From positions 1 through 7,884 of the forward strand of contig JBFLYE010000138.1 in assembly GCA_040756715.1 (NCBI GenBank): a stretch of DNA of 7,884 nt, read 5' to 3'. The notes under the pieces were generated by a model. That model was not told where the DNA came from. It searched no databases and was given only the letters and a program-made list of their open reading frames with translations. This DNA comes from JBFLYE01 sp040756715 [NCBI: bacterium]. GTDB taxonomy: Bacteria; UBA9089; UBA9088. Of the stretch, positions 1 to 7,884 are shown piece after piece; positions within the stretch are counted from its first letter, which is position 1; the number at the start of each line of letters is the position of its first letter. A program made the translations under genes and the position numbers.

Positions 1-3000
1 CCCAAGGAAAATACCCATCCTTCTCACCTAGAGGAAATGAGATAGCCTTTGCCAAACAGGGTTCTTCCTATGAGATATTCCTAATGAACAAAGATGGAAC
101 AAACATTAGGCAACTAACCAACAATGAAGTAGATGATGTTGAGCCTCTCTTCTCACCCAGTGGAGAAAGAATTGCCTATTCCTCAGGAAACATTATCTAT
201 TTAATGCGAAGGGATGGAAGCAAACAAACAAAGGTAGTGGATGGAACAAGGCCAGTATTCTCTCCCGATGGAAATTCCCTTGCCTTTCTTTACTTTAATA
301 CTGCCTATACCCTAGACCTAGAAACCTTAGAGCTTGAGCAGATAAAGGGAATAGATATGAGGGAAATAAAGAAAGAAGAAATAAAAGGCTTAAGGCAAAT
401 AGAAGAAAAGGTAAAGGGAATATTCTGGTCTTGTGGAAGTGTAGAGAATAAGCTACCGGTTCCAATTATAACTGGAGGATATACTGGCTATGAAGGAATG
501 CCAATAAGCTTAGATGGCTCAAGCTCTTATGACCCTGATGGGACAATTACAACCTATACTTGGGAAATAAACGAAATGTATTACGATGGCTCAATGACAA
601 CCATTGTAATCGATGATGACTACATTGGCTCTTTAACCTTAAGGGTAATTGATAATGATAAAGGAGAGGCAGAGACACAAACAACCATAACTATACTAAA
701 CTTAAATCCCCAAATAACCTTATCCTCTCCAAGCCAGGGAAAGGTAAACTACCCAATCCAATTTATCGCAGAGGTATTTGATACAGACCCTATAACCTTT
801 CTCTGGGACTTTGGTGATTTAGGAACATCCACTAGCGAAAACCCCATTCATTCATACACAAATGTAGGAACCTATACCATAACCTTAAGGGTATCAGACG
901 ATGATGGAGGCCAAACCATAGGAACAAAGACCATTGAAATCATAGAAGCAAACCCAGAGATTAAACTAAATCCAAAAGAAGGCTATATTGCAACCATAAT
1001 TACCATTGAGGGGCTTGGATTTAATGGGGTAGTTAGTATAGACTTTGGAACAACAAAGACAATTGCAACTACATTAAGCTCAAATGGAATGTTTCTCACC
1101 ACCTTTATGGCAGATACCCAGCCCTTAGGAAAGACAATAATCACAGCCAGGGATAAAGAGAGATTTGCCACAGAAACCTTTGCCATAGGCTTAGTCTCTG
1201 TCTTTACCAAAGAGGGAGAGATTATCGGAGGCTATCTTACGATTAAAGGTGGAATAGATGCCTGTCCTATAGGAGGAAGTGTCCTTGTTCTAGCAGGTGA
1301 TTATCTTGAGAATCTTTACCTTAATCAGAATATCTCCCTGATTGGCAAAGGAGCAACCATTCAAGGAAGTGTAACCATTGAGAGCAATAATTCCCTAATC
1401 TCTGGCTTTAAAATTACCCAAGGGATATTCTGCATAAATGGTGCAAATCCCATCATTACAAACAACATAATCACAGAAAATAATGGCATCTATTGTTCTT
1501 CTTCCTCCCCAATTATTACCAACAATACAATCGTGGGAAATAAAGAAAATGGCATTTATTGCCTTAATTCTTCCCCCTTTATTTACAACAATATCATTGC
1601 TGAGAATGCATCAGGCATCTATGTAGAATCTGGCAATCCTACGATGAACTACAACGATGTCTGGAATAATTCTTCTGGTAATTACTACAATTGCCCTGCT
1701 GGAGCAAATGACATCTCAGATGACCCACAATTTCAGCCTTCAGCCTTTAGCCTTCAGCCTTCCTCCCCTTGCATTGATGCTGGCTCAAATACTGCCCCAG
1801 CCATCCCAGCTACAGATAAAGATGGAAAGGAAAGAATCATAAATGGCATAGTTGATCTAGGTGCCTATGAATTCCCAGGAGAACCTGCAAGGGGCACAAT
1901 TGCTGGGATGATCACCTACAATGGAACAAAAACAGGAACACTCCATATCGCTTTATTTAATAATCCCTTGTTTTCTGGTGATTCACTTAAGGAAAAAATT
2001 ATCTATTCCCCCTCTTTCCCCCAACCCTATACCATTTCTAATCTGGAAAAGGGAAGCTATTATCTCTTGGCATTTCTTGATCTAGATGACAATGATAATC
2101 CAAGCATTAAAGAGCCCTTGGGAATCTATGGCAGCCTATCTTCTGTATATTCTCCCTTTAAGGTTATTGGCACACCAATTCCCATCCTTGTCTTTAGAGG
2201 CTCAATTAGCGAAGGAATAGACCTTGAATTAACCCATAATGTAGAAGCCTCTAAGGAATGGACATTCATCGTCTACCTTGATGCTGATAATAGCTTAGAA
2301 AGTTGGGCGATTGATGATTTTCTTGAGATGGCAAAGGTTGGCTCAGATTATAAGATAAATATTGTTGTCCAAATGGATAGGATTGAGGGAGGAAATAGCT
2401 CATACGGAAATTGGACAAAATGCCATAGATTTCTGATTACCAAGGATATGGAGCCTTATGAATCCAATGCTATCTCTGATTGGGGAGATGATCTAGGAGG
2501 AAGGGAGGTAAATATGGGTGATCCCGATACCCTTCGGGATTTCATCAATTGGGCAACTACTAATTATCCTGCCAAAAAATATAGCCTTATCCTATGGAAC
2601 CATGGTGGTGGTTGGCGAACACCCAAAAGGCAAATCCCTAAAAAGGGAGTATGCGTGGATGATACGAGTGGAGACATTCTCTTTATGAGTGAAGTAAAAG
2701 AATCAATTGGGAGTGCAAATACCCATCTAAACCTAATTGGCTTTGATATGTGCTTTATGGCTATGGTAGAGGTAGCTTATGCCCTGCGGGGTTTATGCGA
2801 TTGTTTAGTAGGCTCAGAGGAATTTGAATGGGCAGGTGGCTGGCCATATGATGCTATTTTAGGGGATTTAGCTAATACACCAAGTATCTCCCCTAAAGAA
2901 TTAGCAAGTATAATAACTACAAGATATGGTCAAAATTCTGAAGCACAATTAAAATATGATACTACCCAATCTGCATTAGATATGGATAAATTAGGAAATT

Positions 3001-6000
3001 TAATTGATGCAATTGATAGCTTTGCTGAGAGTATGAATGGAATTACTGATTGGGAAAAGATAAAAGAGGCAAGGCAAAGCCTCTCTGCCTATTCTGAATC
3101 AAAATATTTTCACAGTGTAGACCTTTATTTCTTTGCCGATAAGGTTAAAAGCCTTACCTTAGATACAGAGATCCAAGAATCAGCACAAAGGGTTAAAGAA
3201 AGCCTAATTTCAGCAATTATTGCCAATTATCGGGGCAAAGAGCGAGATGATGACGATGGCTATGGTTCTTATGGGCTTTCTATTTACTTCCCAAAGGATG
3301 TTAATGCTTACAATAATGACCCTCAGCATTATGCTTATGAGGAGGGGAATAAAATCTATCCCGTAGATTATGTAGATTGCCATAGATGGGATAATTTCTT
3401 AAGAAGATTTTATGATATAAAAGGTGGGACAATCACGGGTAAGATTTCTTATCAAGGAACAAAAACAGGGATTTTATATTATCAAGCATTTAATAATCCA
3501 CAATTTAGTAAAAAACCTATATATTATGGGACAACGACATTTAAAAAAGACCAGGGAACCTATACCTATACCCTCCAGGTTGACCTTGGAACATATTATT
3601 TAGCCTCATTCCTTGATCTAGATAATAATGGCAATCCAAGCATTGGTGAGCCCTTTGGAATCTATGGCAGCCTATCTTTTGTATATTATCCTTTTCAGGT
3701 GATTGGCACAGCAAATCCAATTTTTGCATCTTGTGGTTCTACTACCGAAGAAATAGACCTTGAATTGACTAAGGAAATAGAGGCTTTACCCATTCTTGGC
3801 TCAGTTTGTGTATACGATAAAAACAATAATTTTATCGGTAGCTATACGGCCATTCAACAAGGAATAAACAACTGCCCGATTGGAGGCACAGTCTCGGTTT
3901 CTCCTGGAATCTACAATGAGGCAATTTATATCAACAAAAATATTTCCTTAATTGGTGCGGGAGCAGATATTTGCACCATTACAGCATCTGGACTTGGCTA
4001 TGTAAGTGCGGTAACCTTTGATGGTGATGCCGCAGACAATGCTATAATCACAGGCTTTACCATAACTGGTGCAAATCGGCATGGAATATCTTGCATAAAT
4101 GGTGCAGAGCCAATTATCACAAACAACACAATCTCAGGGAATTACTGTGGCATTTACTGCGACAACAATTCTTCCCCAAAGATCATAAATAACACAATAT
4201 CAAGAAATGGTGAGGGTATCTATGGTTCTTCTTCCTCTCCCTCCATTACAAACAATACAATATCAGAAAATTACGATGGCATTTACTGCCACAACAATTC
4301 CTCTCCAATTATCACAAACAATATAATCTTTGGGAATAATAAGCGTGGTATCTTCTGCATAGATTCCTCCCCAAAGATTATAAATAACACAATTTCAGGG
4401 CATTGGCGTGGTATCTATTGCCTCTATTCCTCTTTTCCATCCATTGCAAGCAATACAATTTCGGGGAATTCTATTGGCATCTACGCAGGACTAGATTCTC
4501 GTCCAAATATCATAAATAACACGATCTCAGGGAATAAGGGGGATGGCATTTTCTGTGACTCCTCCCTAGATACAACTATTACAAATAATATAATCAGCGA
4601 GAATGGTAATGCAGGAATTTATTACTACCACTTCCCATCACCTATATGGGGAGACGAATGGGTTTATTTTTCATACATTACAAACAATACAATCAGTCAA
4701 AATAAGTATGGTATCTATTGCTACATCTCCATTTCTTCCCTACACTTTCTTGTCATCACAAATAGCATCATCAGCAAAAATAAAGAATGGGGTATTTATT
4801 CTTATGAGCTCACAAATAATGAAAGGATTGATTATAACTGTATCTGGGGGAATGGTCAAGATGGAAATAATAATTACTACAATTGTTCTTTAGGACCAAA
4901 TAACATCTCCTCTGACCCTCAATTTATCGGGATGGCTGATTTCCATCTTCAACCTTCTTCTCCTTGTAGAGATAAAGGCTTAAATACAGCAGGTATGATT
5001 CTATCAACCGATAAAGATGGAAAGGAAAGGATAGTGTATGGTATAATTGATCTGGGTGCTTATGAATTTCAAGAATTCCAAGGGCCTCCAATCTATAGCA
5101 TTCTTATGGGTAGGGTTACTGATATATCAGAAGTTCCTATTGAAGGAGCAAGGATAGAAATATTTGGTCCTTCATCCTATACTGCAACCACTGATGAAAA
5201 TGGCAAATATATTATCTTTCGCCTGGTTGATGGAAAATATACAATATTTGCAAAGGTCAGTGATTTCTATGGTTCTTATACAGAGAATGTAGAAATAAAA
5301 ACAGGAACAATTACTACAGCTAATTTTAGATTAAACCCTATTGATATAGTCTATGTAGATGATGATTATACAGGTATAGAGCTTGGCACAGAGGATAATC
5401 CATTTAATACGATTATGGAAGGCATCTCACTTTTTGAAGAAAAAGGCACAGTTATGGTTTGCCCAGGAACCTATAGCGAAAATATATTGATCGAAAAAAG
5501 GATTTCTCTGGTTGGGATTGGAACACCAACCATCTTTCCAAATATGGAAGATGGTCTAACATTTAAAGGTAACAAGGCAGACAATGCCTCTATCTCTTTC
5601 TTTATGATCACTGGGGGAAGAAATGGGATATGTTGCTATGATGCAAAGCCTGTTATCACAAACAATATAATTGCCGGCAATATTGAAAATGGTATCTTTT
5701 GCTTTTCTCCTTCAACCATTACCCATAATACAATTATGGGGAATCTTAAGAATGGAATCTATGGACATAGCTTTTCTTGTATAGAGAACATAATTACAGA
5801 TAATGGAGAAAATGGAATCTCCTGCTTAAGAGGTAATTCAACCATCTTAAACAATACAATCGCAAAGAATAGAAAAGATGGTATTTATGGCAATATTTTA
5901 AAAGCAACCATTGTTAATAATGTAATTTCTGATAATGAAAATGGAATTTCTTGCTCAGGCTCAGATTTAACCATCTTAAACAATACAATCGCAAAGAATA

Positions 6001-7884
6001 GGACAAATGGTATTTTCTCCACTGCTAAAATTGTTAACAATATTATTGCCGAAAATGGCATAACAAAAGATGATGCTTATGGAATATATTCAACTGGTAA
6101 TCCTTCAATCTTTAACAATTGCCTCTTTAGAAATGGCTTAGGTGGAAGTAATAATTATAAGGGATGTGATCCGGGAAGGAATGATATATATCTTGACCCT
6201 CAATTTATAAGTTTGTGGGACTATCATCTAAGACCAGATTCTCCCTGTATAGATGTTGGTAAGGAGAGTGATTTAGAACTTCCATTAACTGATAAAGATG
6301 GAAAGGAAAGGATAAAAAGAATAATTGATTTAGGTGCTTATGAATTTCAAGGGATACCAACAAATCCTAAGATCACACCAATGCCAAAGAGGGGTTCGGT
6401 TGGAAAGGTAATAACGATTGAAGGCTTAGGGTTTTTAGAAAACCATCAAATAACCATTGATTTTGGAATAACCTTTACGATTGCCACTACCTATTCATCC
6501 CCCAAAGGAACATTTTTCATAACATTTATCATAAATACCCAACCACCAGGAATAAATGTAATTACAGCAGGGAATAGCTTTGGAGTTGCTACAAGTCTAT
6601 TCTTTCTCTTGATTCCCTCGGTTGTTGTTTATAATCCAGAGGGAGAGATAATTGGGATATATCCTACCATCCAGGATGGAATAGATGTCTGTCCAATTGG
6701 GGGAACTGTCTCTCCTACATTGGATGCCTATATTGAGGCAATTTATATCAACAAAAGGATTGCTTTAATTGGAAAAGGGACAACTACAATTTCATCCTCA
6801 GAGCTTGGTGAGAAAAATACACTAACCTTTGAGGGAGATGGTGCAGATTTTGCCTTAATCTCTGGTTTCAATATAACGGGGGCAAGAAAGATATATTATG
6901 AGGAATTTAACTACAATGGTATTGGTATATTCTGTAAAAATGGGGCAGACCCAATTATCACAAAAAATATAATCTCAGGGAATAGCTATTATGGGATTTT
7001 TTGTAAGGATTCTTCTCCAACCATTTCTGACAATATAATCTCAAAGAATGGAAATGATCAATGTGATCTTTATTATACAGAAGGCGGTATTCGTTGTGAA
7101 AACTCATCTTCAAATATTACAAATAATATAATTGCTGGAAATAGAAGTGGTATCGTAGTGGATCCAAGTGTTTCTCCTTTTCAAGGCTTTCCTGAGAGGA
7201 TAAAAAAGCATATTTTAGAAGATTATGGTTCATATCCAAACATTACAAACAATATTATTTTGGAAAATAAGATTGGCATTGCATGTGGTTGGAATTCCTT
7301 TCCAAATATTACAAATAACACAATCTTAAGAAATCTTTACTTTGGAGGCTTCTTCAGCTTTTCTTTTGCAAATATTACAAACAATATTATTGTAGAAAAT
7401 GGGACAACTACCGATGGATATGGTATTTATCAATTTATCGACTCTAATCATCCACCGGCTATCTCTATGCTTGAACATAACTGTGTTTGGAACAATGGTC
7501 TGGATGGGAATAATGGATACTATAATTGCTTTGAACATGAAATAGTAAACAATATATCCCTTGACCCCCAATTTATTGGTGATGAAGATTATCACTTACA
7601 ATCTACCTCTTTCTGTATAGATACGGGTTTAAATGAAGCACAAGGAATTCCTGTAACTGACAAGGATGGTAATCCAAGAATACAGGATGGAAACAATGAT
7701 GGAATTGCTATTGTAGATATGGGGGCATATGAATATCCTGAGAAAAAAACTGCATTGGGCTTCCTCTTTGGCACAGTTACCGAGGATTTAAATTCCCCTG
7801 CCTTTTCCTTTGCTCTCTTCTCTGATGGCCCTCAAAGATACTTAGGGGGAGGATGTAAAGATGATACAATTGTTAATAATGGCT
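1..7884 (+). CDS. Giant multidomain probable surface protein with embedded C11 peptidase (internal fragment, both ends missing)
   Basis: A single open frame with codons starting at base 3 runs through the entire window without a stop; bases 1-2 and 7884 belong to split codons. The visible part is 2,627 residues, roughly 290 kDa, and the full protein is longer. Residue n of the fragment starts at base 3n. Domain order is PD40 propeller end, PKD, PKD, TIG, beta-helix 1, module A, C11 peptidase, module B, beta-helix 2, CarboxypepD_reg, beta-helix 3, TIG, beta-helix 4, partial module. These families are typical of secreted or cell-envelope proteins, so surface exposure is inferred; no signal peptide, membrane segment or sorting signal is visible. 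Clear domain matches along nearly the whole length show that the frame is real and undisrupted. Arg codons are mainly AGA/AGG. I do not recognise the specific protein; adhesion, polysaccharide binding and proteolysis are all possible roles. Confidence 0.96.
3..359 (+). other. Domain: TolB/PD40-type beta-propeller blades (C-terminal end)
   Basis: Three PD40-type blade motifs are visible: SFSPRGNEIAFAK from base 18, LFSPSGERIAYSS from base 147 and VFSPDGNSLAFL from base 255. They sit between strands such as EIFLMNKDGTNIRQLT (from base 78) and IIYLMRRDG. The pattern FSPxGxxIAF followed by IxLMxxDG and a QLT-like strand is the hallmark of TolB-like WD40/PD40 repeats, which build protein-interaction propellers, usually outside the cytoplasm. 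Only about three blades are present, so the rest of a six- or seven-bladed propeller must lie upstream. The third blade is less regular, reading AYTLDLETLELEQI instead of the LMxxDG strand, which suits the last blade before the next domain. Confidence 0.88.
360..452 (+). other. Charged, probably helical linker
   Basis: About 31 residues rich in Lys, Glu and Arg (REIKKEEIKGLRQIEEKVKG and onward) join the propeller to the first PKD domain. The composition and spacing suggest a short amphipathic helix or small coiled coil. It ends with a GIFWSCGSVENK segment that holds a lone cysteine. No family is recognised. Confidence 0.55.
456..704 (+). other. Domain: PKD domain 1
   Basis: The segment opens with PVPIITGGYTGYEGMPISL, continues with the diagnostic DGSSSYDPDGTITTYTWEI, and closes with the strand SLTLRVIDNDKGEAET. 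The order (P-I opening, SSSxDPDGxIxxYxW core, LxVxDxxG closing strand) is that of PKD domains, Ig-like beta-sandwiches used as spacers or for polysaccharide or protein contact in secreted enzymes and surface proteins. The W of the central strand is present, but the usual WDFGDG turn is replaced by WEINEMYYDG, so this copy has drifted. It sits directly before PKD 2 with almost no linker. Confidence 0.88.
705..950 (+). other. Domain: PKD domain 2
   Basis: The central motif TFLWDFGDLGTSTSENPIHS leads into the YTNVGTYTITLRVSDDDGG strand pair, an almost textbook PKD signature (WDFGD, then xxPxHxYxxxGxYTxxLxVxD). The N-terminal part, SSPSQGKVNYPIQFIAEVFD, lacks the DPDG turn and has the shorter FDTDPITF form, common in the second member of tandem PKD arrays. 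Length, about 82 residues, is normal. It ends at ETI-like strand TKTIEIIEA just before the TIG-like domain. Confidence 0.93.
951..1190 (+). other. Domain: IPT/TIG-like Ig-fold domain, copy 1
   Basis: NPEIKLNPKEGYIATIITI followed by EGLGFNGVVSIDFGTTKTI has the layout of IPT/TIG domains (xxPxxGxxGxxVTIxGxGF, then a strand with a short FG-type turn). These Ig-like folds are common in bacterial surface proteins. The middle strand MFLTTFMADTQPLGKTIITA and its companion are clearly paralogous to the domain at 6360..6617: both share ITIEGLGF, the IDFG turn, TIATT and TQPxG. It precedes beta-helix 1 directly, just as copy 2 precedes beta-helix 4. Confidence 0.75.
1732..1766 (+). repeat. Heptanucleotide tandem repeat ttcagcc inside the cap of beta-helix 1
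   Basis: Units at 1732, 1739, 1746 and 1753 read ttcagcc, ttcagcc, tttagcc, ttcagcc, followed by a degenerate ttcctcc. Because 7 is not a multiple of 3, successive units are read in different phases, giving FQPSAFSLQPSS. This replaces the sequence between DPQF and SPC in the other caps (such as IGMADFHLQPS in helix 2) and is one residue shorter. The frame stays open. Confidence 0.85.
1815..1834 (+). repeat. 20-base perfect repeat in the cap of beta-helix 1 (copy 1 of 3)
   Basis: gataaagatggaaaggaaag is found identically at 1815, 5010 and 6291, encoding DKDGKER in the caps of helices 1, 2 and 3. The helix 4 cap encodes DKDGNPR with different codons (from 7659). Confidence 0.9.
1893..2249 (+). 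other. Domain: Ig-like module A with EF-hand-like loop
   Basis: About 119 residues starting with GTIAGMITYNGTKTGTLHIA and containing YYLLAFLDLDDNDNPSIKEP. The 12-residue stretch DLDDNDNPSIKE (2079..2114) has acidic or polar side chains at EF-loop positions 1, 3, 5 and 9 and Glu at 12, so calcium binding is plausible (inference). The strand pattern resembles carboxypeptidase-regulatory or Cna-B-like beta-sandwiches that carry a D-rich loop. It is paralogous to module B at 3423..3788: loop, GIYGSLS, VIG and the closing IDLELT segment all match. The pair brackets the C11 peptidase. No exact family name is assigned. Confidence 0.7.
2601..2603 (+). other. Predicted catalytic His of the C11 peptidase
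   Basis: The codon cat encodes the His of LILWNHGGGW (fragment residue 867). In clan CD peptidases the catalytic His follows a hydrophobic strand and is followed by Gly, as here. Assignment is by motif only. Confidence 0.88.
2751..2753 (+). other. Predicted catalytic Cys of the C11 peptidase
   Basis: The codon tgc encodes the Cys of LIGFDMCFMA (fragment residue 917), 50 residues after the predicted His. It follows a hydrophobic strand in the D-x-C context typical of C11. Most relatives read DAC; DMC is a mild variation next to the nucleophile. Confidence 0.88.
3423..3788 (+). other. Domain: Ig-like module B with EF-hand-like loop
   Basis: This is a second copy of module A placed immediately after the peptidase. 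It starts GGTITGKISYQGTKTGILYY and contains YYLASFLDLDNNGNPSIGEP, then GIYGSLSFVYYPFQVIG, and closes with EIDLELTKE. The loop DLDNNGNPSIGE (3615..3650) is a better EF-hand match than in module A because it has Gly at position 6. The loops of A and B are exactly 1,536 bases (512 codons) apart, and 22 consecutive bases just downstream of each loop (2121 and 3657) are identical, so the two copies share a duplication origin. A structural or calcium-dependent role next to the peptidase is inferred. Confidence 0.72.
3918..3939 (+). repeat. 22-base perfect repeat in the entry segments of beta-helices 2 and 4 (copy 1)
   Basis: The 22 bases encoding EAIYINK here are identical to those at 6735..6756, 2,817 bases (939 codons) away. 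Helices 1 and 3 have related but different sequence at this point (ENLYLNQ and ENILIEK). The match links the N-terminal caps of helices 2 and 4 as the closest pair. Confidence 0.88.
4083..4856 (+). repeat. Coil repeats of beta-helix 2, about 22 codons each
   Basis: Eleven successive coils, most 63-69 bases long, each have a GI(Y/F/S) turn, a short Ser/Asn/Pro stretch, then xIxNNTIS. At DNA level, acaaacaatacaatc-like and ataaataacacaat-like segments recur about every 66 bases. The Asn pair (NN) forms the asparagine ladder known from right-handed beta-helices. The residue after GIY/GIF is Cys in most coils. Confidence 0.9.
5010..5029 (+). repeat. 20-base perfect repeat in the cap of beta-helix 2 (copy 2 of 3)
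   Basis: Identical to 1815..1834 and 6291..6310, including every synonymous position. It encodes the DKDGKER part of the cap motif. Confidence 0.9.
5106..5336 (+). other. Domain: CarboxypepD_reg-like beta-sandwich
   Basis: MGRVTDISEVPIEGARIEIF, TATTDENGKYIIFRLVDGKY and ENVEIKTGTITTANFRLN give the full signature of a carboxypeptidase regulatory-like domain (GxVxD..g.Pi.GA.v, TT.e.G.Y.i..l..G.Y, v.v..G.....f.L). At about 77 residues it has normal length. These transthyretin-like folds act as spacers or binding modules in surface proteins. Here it separates beta-helix 2 from beta-helix 3, in the place where modules A and B occur around the peptidase. It lacks the D-rich EF-like loop of those modules. 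Confidence 0.9.
5808..6050 (+). repeat. Two-coil tandem duplication in beta-helix 3
   Basis: Copy 1 (5808..5936, 43 codons) and copy 2 (5937..6050, 38 codons) both start with gaaaatggaat and encode ENGISC, TILNNTIAKNR and IVNN in the same order. The 33 bases at 5840..5872 and 5969..6001 are identical, 129 bases apart. The copies have diverged in the loops between these anchors and copy 2 has lost five codons, all in frame. Confidence 0.9.
6291..6310 (+). repeat. 20-base perfect repeat in the cap of beta-helix 3 (copy 3 of 3)
   Basis: Identical to 1815..1834 and 5010..5029. The surrounding cap sequence has diverged between copies, which makes the preserved codons stand out. Confidence 0.9.
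6360..6617 (+). other. Domain: IPT/TIG-like Ig-fold domain, copy 2
   Basis: TPMPKRGSVGKVITIEGLGF, then QITIDFGITFTIATTYSS and FINTQPPGINVITAGNSFG-like strands repeat the layout of the domain at 951..1190. Position-by-position agreement (PxxG opening, ITIEGLGF, IDFG, TIATT, TQPxG, ITA) makes paralogy clear. The opening PKRGSVGKVITIEG fits the IPT/TIG pattern better than copy 1 does. It is followed by SVVVYNPEGEIIGIY, which matches the SVFTKEGEIIGGY after copy 1, so the junction into the next beta-helix is duplicated too. Confidence 0.78.
6618..7739 (+). other. Domain: right-handed parallel beta-helix 4 with C-terminal cap
   Basis: The entry contains YPTIQDGIDVCPIGGTV and EAIYINKRIALIGKG and resembles helices 1 and 2, but the stretch between them reads SPTLDAY and lacks the usual Pro-Gly turn. 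Seven coils run from 6924 to about 7496, including GIFCKNGADPIITKNIIS and GIACGWNSFPNITNNTIL. One coil, from about 7149, has a loop of some 20 extra residues with FPERIKKHILEDYGS. The cap (about 7497..7736) has GYYNC, LDPQF, TDKDGNPRI and VDMGAYEY. It is longer than the others because of DGNNDGIAIVD, another D-rich possible calcium loop. Binding or structural role inferred; no active site assigned. Confidence 0.9.
6735..6756 (+). repeat. 22-base perfect repeat in the entry segments of beta-helices 2 and 4 (copy 2)
   Basis: Second copy of the repeat at 3918..3939, again encoding EAIYINK. The codons just upstream differ strongly from those in helix 2, so the match begins abruptly at the Glu codon. 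Confidence 0.88.
7740..7883 (+). other. Start of a further module, cut by the window edge
   Basis: After beta-helix 4, the 48 residues visible include ALGFLFGTVTEDL, AFSFALFSDGPQ and GGGCKDDTIVNNG. The GTVTED opening and the FALFSDGP strand resemble the start of module A (GTIAGMITYNG, then IALFNNP) and of the CarboxypepD_reg-like domain. It is probably another beta-sandwich in the same position relative to its helix as module A after helix 1. The fragment is too short to assign a family. Confidence 0.45.

Follow-up and report, generated by a model that had tools for sequence, protein, structure and literature searches.

A C11 peptidase with conserved candidate self-cleavage sites in the middle of a giant beta-helix protein

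Clostripain, a peptidase of MEROPS family C11, is described as a protein with a signal peptide, a propeptide (residues 28–50) and the enzyme alone; it cleaves itself at Arg181 and Arg190 and so loses residues 182–190, the linker gates the pocket, and the light and heavy chains are held together by non-covalent forces (PMC11296011, from which the clostripain residue numbering used here is also taken). PmC11 is cut at Lys147 (His133+14), and this cut is needed for full activity (PMC4850288); globupain is processed at K137 (His132+5) and K144 (PMC10315481). The gingipains of Porphyromonas gingivalis are described as polyproteins with immunoglobulin-like (Ig-like) and adhesin parts that are proteolytically processed, stay together non-covalently on the surface and carry a type IX secretion tail (PMC10319874). 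We analysed a stretch of 7,884 nucleotides (the window) from the uncultured bacterium JBFLYE01 sp040756715 (assembly GCA_040756715.1, contig JBFLYE010000138.1), in which a C11 peptidase lies in the middle of a giant protein, between two related modules (M1 and M2) and several beta-helices.

The window is one whole contig (C138) of a genome of 1,552,737 bases in 218 contigs, and a single stop-free frame of 2627 amino acids (aa) fills it (Table 1). The initial annotation of this DNA, made from the letters alone, had proposed an apparently intact C11 peptidase in mid-chain, bracketed by two related modules and by beta-helices, over a span (1893–3788) that proves to run from the start of M1 to the end of M2. 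Our results bear this out. Peptidase_C11 (PF03415) matches aa 757–1110 with an E of 1.7e-52 and 179.6 bits, against a cut-off of 25.8. The catalytic His867 and Cys917, together with Asp915, are invariant in all 21 segments of our C11 alignment, 17 from the host's phylum and 4 from outside it. The best sequence relative of solved structure found by phmmer is clostripain (9cip, E 1.8e-24), and the alignment places H867, R872, K881, D915 and C917 on H176, R181, R190, D229 and C231, respectively. Arg/Lys specificity is predicted from D915. The clostripain equivalog TIGR02806 gives 87.7 bits against a cut-off of 550, and by this measure the enzyme is a C11 relative, not clostripain proper. An AlphaFold2 model of aa 629–1262 has a mean pLDDT of 73, with ten-residue blocks of the C11 part mostly at about 77–97 and weaker loops. 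Model residues 121–515 (window aa 749–1143) superpose on 9cip in VIA-align with a Z of 39.0 (root mean square deviation 2.9, 373 residues, 25% identity), so that the predicted model has the caspase-like fold and the C11 C-terminal domain, and His867 and Cys917 both lie inside the superposing part. The C11 enzyme thus appears intact, as judged from sequence and model. Only one residue separates the end of M1 (aa 749) from the first residue of the C11 match (aa 751), which leaves no room for a propeptide of the clostripain type.

Both self-cleavage positions of clostripain have counterparts in the window enzyme. The alignment with 9cip is free of gaps from H867 to K881, and aa 873–881 therefore correspond to a nonapeptide like clostripain's. 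Column 881 holds Lys or Arg in 20 of 20 ungapped rows, which puts it at the top of the 350 alignment columns, and column 872 does so in 18 of the 21 rows. When the sites were located by motif in 25 C11 domains, Lys or Arg was present at the second site in 24 and at His+5 in 20 (21/21 and 19/21, respectively, when only domains of the phylum are counted); the background of Lys plus Arg in the compared C11 domains is about 7%. Basic candidate activation sites are thus found between His and Cys, by sequence only. This conserved pair is the strongest addition to the earlier account, and it gives a definite prediction of cuts at aa 872 and 881.

The domain order, the conserved catalytic residues, the alignment and conservation of the two sites and the recurrence in relatives (below) are observed directly. 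We consider it fairly probable, on these sequence grounds, that the C11 domain is a working Arg/Lys endopeptidase in a giant, probably exported multidomain protein, and that clostripain-like self-cutting nicks the whole chain. Self-cleavage behind Arg872 and Lys881 would remove the gate over the active site, a nonapeptide, and leave His867 in a light chain and Cys917 in a heavy chain that non-covalent contacts keep together. Because the enzyme lies in mid-chain, with His867 before and Cys917 after the linker, maturation of the clostripain type would necessarily break the giant chain. The N-terminal part would comprise at least 872 aa (propeller, PKD domains, helix 1, M1 and light chain) and the C-terminal part at least 1746 aa (heavy chain, M2 and helices 2–4), and after the nick the C11 fold would be the sole join between them. 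The active enzyme would be displayed among beta-helix and Ig-like domains acting as spacers or binders, and would digest proteins around the cell.

Several points weigh against this reading. The C11 fold is common to zymogens, and 6mzo, titled an inactive zymogen, also matches the model (VIA-align Z 31.7). The linker itself is modelled with moderate confidence. In domains that have the loop, the second site lies anywhere between H+12 and H+25, and its distance from His is 14 in 8 of the 25 domains; Lys or Arg is missing at His+5 in 5 of the 25, and a Methanophagales C11 has neither site. A structural reason could also explain the conservation of the basic residues. Finally, both ends of the protein fall outside the window, and a signal peptide and a sorting tail are therefore out of view.

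The architecture recurs in part among relatives. C11 occurs in 12 of 19 genomes of the host's small phylum, at 21 places in 19 open frames, 15 of which were scanned with Pfam. The initial annotation had suggested looking for C11 together with beta-helices in one protein, and this combination was found in 4 of the 15 (the window, G002 C146, G004 C179 and G015 C90); none of 10 scanned C11 frames outside the phylum, six of them chosen for great length, has a Beta_helix match (E 0.001). The whole segment of helix 1, M1 and C11 aligns throughout with G002, with 46% identity over 668 columns. The window C11 is sister to that of G004 C179 (support 99/99), whose neighbouring domains differ. The genus-level relative G001 carries just one C11, fused to a subtilase, and offers no close orthologue of the window protein. 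The view that C11 peptidases are mostly stand-alone enzymes, from which the initial annotation had started, holds outside the phylum but not inside it. C11 was found in 81 of 386 sampled genomes. We compared frame lengths for C11 places, picked by hand among the matches listed, whose profile match starts at position 4 or earlier and reaches position 280 or beyond; frames cut by contig ends appear shorter here than they are. Among those matches the median open frame measures 609 aa outside the phylum and 1498.5 aa inside it, and frames of at least 1500 aa account for 8 of 77 and 8 of 16 places, respectively (Fisher p 0.0008, although places that share a frame or come from related genomes are not truly independent).

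The company that C11 keeps in the phylum is also an argument for a plainer explanation. The enzyme may be active and tethered, with any self-cleavage being without consequence, and the helices and Ig-like modules may serve only to anchor an ordinary scavenging protease to the cell surface or to a substrate. The partners are very diverse (propeller plus beta-helix, cohesin/dockerin, PKD, papain-like peptidase and subtilase), which fits interchangeable carriers; however, both activation sites are kept in chains that have large parts on either side of C11, and if these sites are used the chain is cut there. We regard this explanation as a serious but distinctly less probable one than a consequential nick.

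The initial annotation had gone further and suggested that the enzyme cuts its own chain or neighbouring chains after Arg or Lys and so releases beta-helix segments. Own-chain cutting is supported at one place, the R872/K881 linker inside the enzyme, but nothing indicates cuts in the linkers between domains or release of helices. The predicted Arg/Lys specificity would allow such cuts, and the only other ten-residue stretch with five Lys or Arg residues (aa 2097–2107) lies shortly before the third helix unit ends. Against this, the giant chain is poor in Lys and Arg (6.7%), which rather suggests few sites, and no conservation of inter-domain sites was seen. Cutting of inter-domain linkers that frees beta-helix segments is in our judgement improbable.

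Slightly less probable again is that C11 was inserted into a duplicated module, yielding a specific M1-C11-M2 device. M1 has its highest identity with M2 and M2 with M1 (67 of 123 aligned columns identical; 54%, E 1e-38), and M stands a few residues ahead of C11 in 4 of the 15 scanned frames (the window, G002 C146, G006 C293 and G007 C9). M is present in 12 of 19 phylum genomes, however, and many frames carry it without C11; in other scanned frames C11 is preceded by a different Ig-like domain (4/15) or a subtilase (4/15). In a tree of 22 modules M1 falls in a four-row group with the M that precedes C11 in G002 and two others (91/97) and M2 in a ten-row group (82/80), and no strongly supported set contains either of them. 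The window C11, moreover, has as its sister the G004 C179 enzyme, which follows a HYDIN-like Ig domain. The initial annotation's view of the bracket as something special is thus not supported, and the weakly supported tree does not put the two modules together. M is a common, generic spacer module in the host's phylum, and we read its distribution and the trees as a sign that generic parts have been shuffled around an enzyme that is itself conserved. Predicted alone, M is a confident beta-sandwich (pLDDT 97). Foldseek of this model against the PDB gave nothing at an E of 0.001 or below (best 1.9e-2); in VIA-align its best Z was 8.5, with a pilotin (3.0 Å, 97 residues), and many transthyretin-like and fibronectin III domains scored 6–8. 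Pfam gave weak matches only on 21 M rows (DUF2141 in 7 of 21, best E 0.0079). As Foldseek and VIA-align gave no clear fold relative, we call M a beta-sandwich, on sequence and model, and claim nothing more specific.

Lastly, an assembly artefact that fused C11 to an unrelated repeat protein might be suspected in a short contig with a repeat-rich protein and two open ends, but it is very improbable, because the exact repeats of at least 24 bases (5010/6291 and around 5840/5969) lie away from the C11 segment and its junctions, and because the order helix-M-C11 recurs in G002 and C11-helix in G004. Exact matches between M1 and M2 reach 20 bases but not 24. Neither the last 185 nor the first 400 window bases, searched against the genome's own DNA, led to an overlapping contig that extends the protein.

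How, then, does a C11 enzyme that probably nicks its own giant chain compare with the systems described above? With clostripain and PmC11 (PDB 9cip, 3uws) it shares the catalytic dyad, the S1 Asp and the fold, and with clostripain also both self-cleavage positions and a nonapeptide of equal length; unlike clostripain, it has a beta-sandwich that leads straight into the first C11 strand, and over 600 aa flank it on either side. The gingipains RgpA and Kgp offer a works-like comparison, in that they too are clan CD Arg/Lys peptidases in a large chain with Ig-like parts. They differ in belonging to family C25, in having the enzyme near the N-terminus after a propeptide, and in being processed between domains and not inside the catalytic fold, and no C25 match appears for the window protein in the Pfam or NCBIfam lists (E up to 0.1). 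By this analogy, the processed gingipain polyprotein comes closest in design, though it belongs to another family. Autotransporter proteases such as Ssp combine a serine peptidase with a single helix and with a barrel at the C-terminus. They share with the window protein a protease and a right-handed beta-helix on a protein that is, or here probably is, exported; the window protein has C11 rather than a serine peptidase and several helices rather than one, and a Pfam scan of its chain, which stops short of the C-terminus, found no C-terminal beta-barrel domain. The subtilase autotransporter Ssp is described in PMC9977779. In the account of the gingipains in PMC10319874 no beta-helices are named. 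Giant extracellular proteins of PVC-related lineages are likewise very large and predicted to be exported, with several tandem beta-helices, but the domains named in the account in PMC12057145 are carbohydrate-related and toxin-like and not C11 peptidases. Among openly licensed papers, searches that combined C11 with beta-helices, PKD domains or giant proteins found none that describes this architecture. The architecture is real, and is a new variant within the known enzyme family C11.

An export route for such proteins is suggested by other genes of the phylum. The host's own genome has 22 above-cut-off matches to the type IX tail TIGR04183, and the C11 giants of relatives whose C-termini are visible end in Por_Secre_tail or CHU_C domains (L036, L041, L042, L046 and others). 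SprA (TIGR04189) gives matches in 19 of 19 phylum genomes, although none is above the cut-off, and in none of 14 control genomes. The SprA-like protein of the host (L093:1068-6926 (-), G000:C50; 1953 aa) is divergent, at 137.4 bits against the NCBIfam cut-off of 200, and has no Pfam match and no PDB sequence match at 0.01. These findings make a type IX-like export route likely; the window protein's own tail is out of view. A 2016 survey found the type IX system in Bacteroidetes alone (PMC4793230). As a more tentative proposal, C11 may be a built-in self-cleaving joint, in which the nonapeptide is excised on export and two helix-bearing halves are then clamped by the mature enzyme alone, convergent with the processed gingipain polyproteins and possibly served by a type IX-like system outside Bacteroidota.

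The remaining domains of the frame are listed in Table 1. Pfam and NCBIfam matches were listed at E up to 0.1, and comprise seven Beta_helix stretches (E 2.2e-69), two PKD_4 stretches, CarboxypepD_reg, four stretches of choice_anch_Q (NF041518; 123.1 bits against a cut-off of 25) and a TolB-propeller similarity; a TIG domain, which the initial annotation had named, is absent from the Pfam list. Window positions 39–1124 have a copy in another contig of the same genome (G000:C60, L094), with DNA identity of 97% over 39–297 and 85% over 289–1124, and in C60 the copy is interrupted by 230 AT-rich bases, flanked on both sides by window bases 289–297.

Table 1. Features of the window and the evidence on which each is placed.
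Feature	Position	Strand	Basis
Open frame, 2627 aa, incomplete at both ends	3..7883	+	contig ends
TolB/PD40-like beta-propeller, C-terminal part, aa 5-96	15..290	+	Pfam, NCBIfam
Two PKD domains, about aa 167-313 (first weak; second aa 235-313)	501..941	+	Pfam
Beta-helix 1, borders approximate, by motifs	1338..1748	+	Pfam, NCBIfam, motifs
Choice-of-anchor Q stretch after beta-helix 1, aa 582-624	1746-1874	+	NCBIfam
Module M1, beta-sandwich, aa 631-749, directly before C11	1893..2249	+	M1/M2 alignment, fold prediction
Peptidase C11 (clostripain) domain, aa 751-1137	2253..3413	+	Pfam, alignment, model superposition
Catalytic His867, aligned with clostripain His176	2601..2603	+	alignment
Arg872, predicted first self-cleavage site, aligned with clostripain Arg181	2616..2618	+	alignment, conservation
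Predicted excised nonapeptide, aa 873-881; Lys881 = predicted second site, aligned with clostripain Arg190	2619..2645	+	alignment, conservation
Asp915, S1 specificity residue, aligned with clostripain Asp229	2745..2747	+	alignment
Catalytic Cys917, aligned with clostripain Cys231	2751..2753	+	alignment
Module M2, aa 1142-1262	3426..3788	+	M1/M2 alignment
Beta-helix 2, approximate, by motifs; best Pfam stretch aa 1344-1464	3948..4950	+	Pfam, motifs
Choice-of-anchor Q like stretch after beta-helix 2	to about nt 5069	+	NCBIfam
CarboxypepD_reg beta-sandwich, aa 1702-1777	5106..5333	+	Pfam
Beta-helix 3, approximate, by motifs	5508..6230	+	Pfam, motifs
Beta-helix 4, approximate, by motifs	6765..7590	+	Pfam, motifs

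Further C11 arrangements were seen in the same genomes. A second C11 of the host's own genome (L014:6246-9026, G000:C133) is fused behind a subtilase (S8) domain, and subtilase-C11 fusions (L013, L012, L039) are also present in G001, G002 and G004. Two C11 domains lie in one chain in L011:3722-11473 (G002:C146) and L042:5871-9791 (G007:C180), and two adjoin in L043 (G011:C336), with an in-frame TAG in the first; L045:911-5866 (G015:C214) joins a papain-family (C1) peptidase, a lectin-like domain and C11 in one frame. Outside the phylum, the giant frames L085 and L086 have two C11 domains each, and L088:1305-9488 (-) (G260) combines endonuclease I, C11 and seven CarboxypepD_reg stretches in a frame of 2728 aa.

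If C11 does mature in this way within the window protein, the activation mechanism of the family could operate in very large structural proteins, and its use there would necessarily split the main chain. A single protein would then suffice for testing the idea of mid-chain proteases as joints. The gingipain design, with a clan CD protease and adhesive domains in one chain that is then processed, would have a second, unrelated instance. Together with the type IX tails, the SprA-like matches also hint that this little-studied phylum may possess a type IX-like export route.

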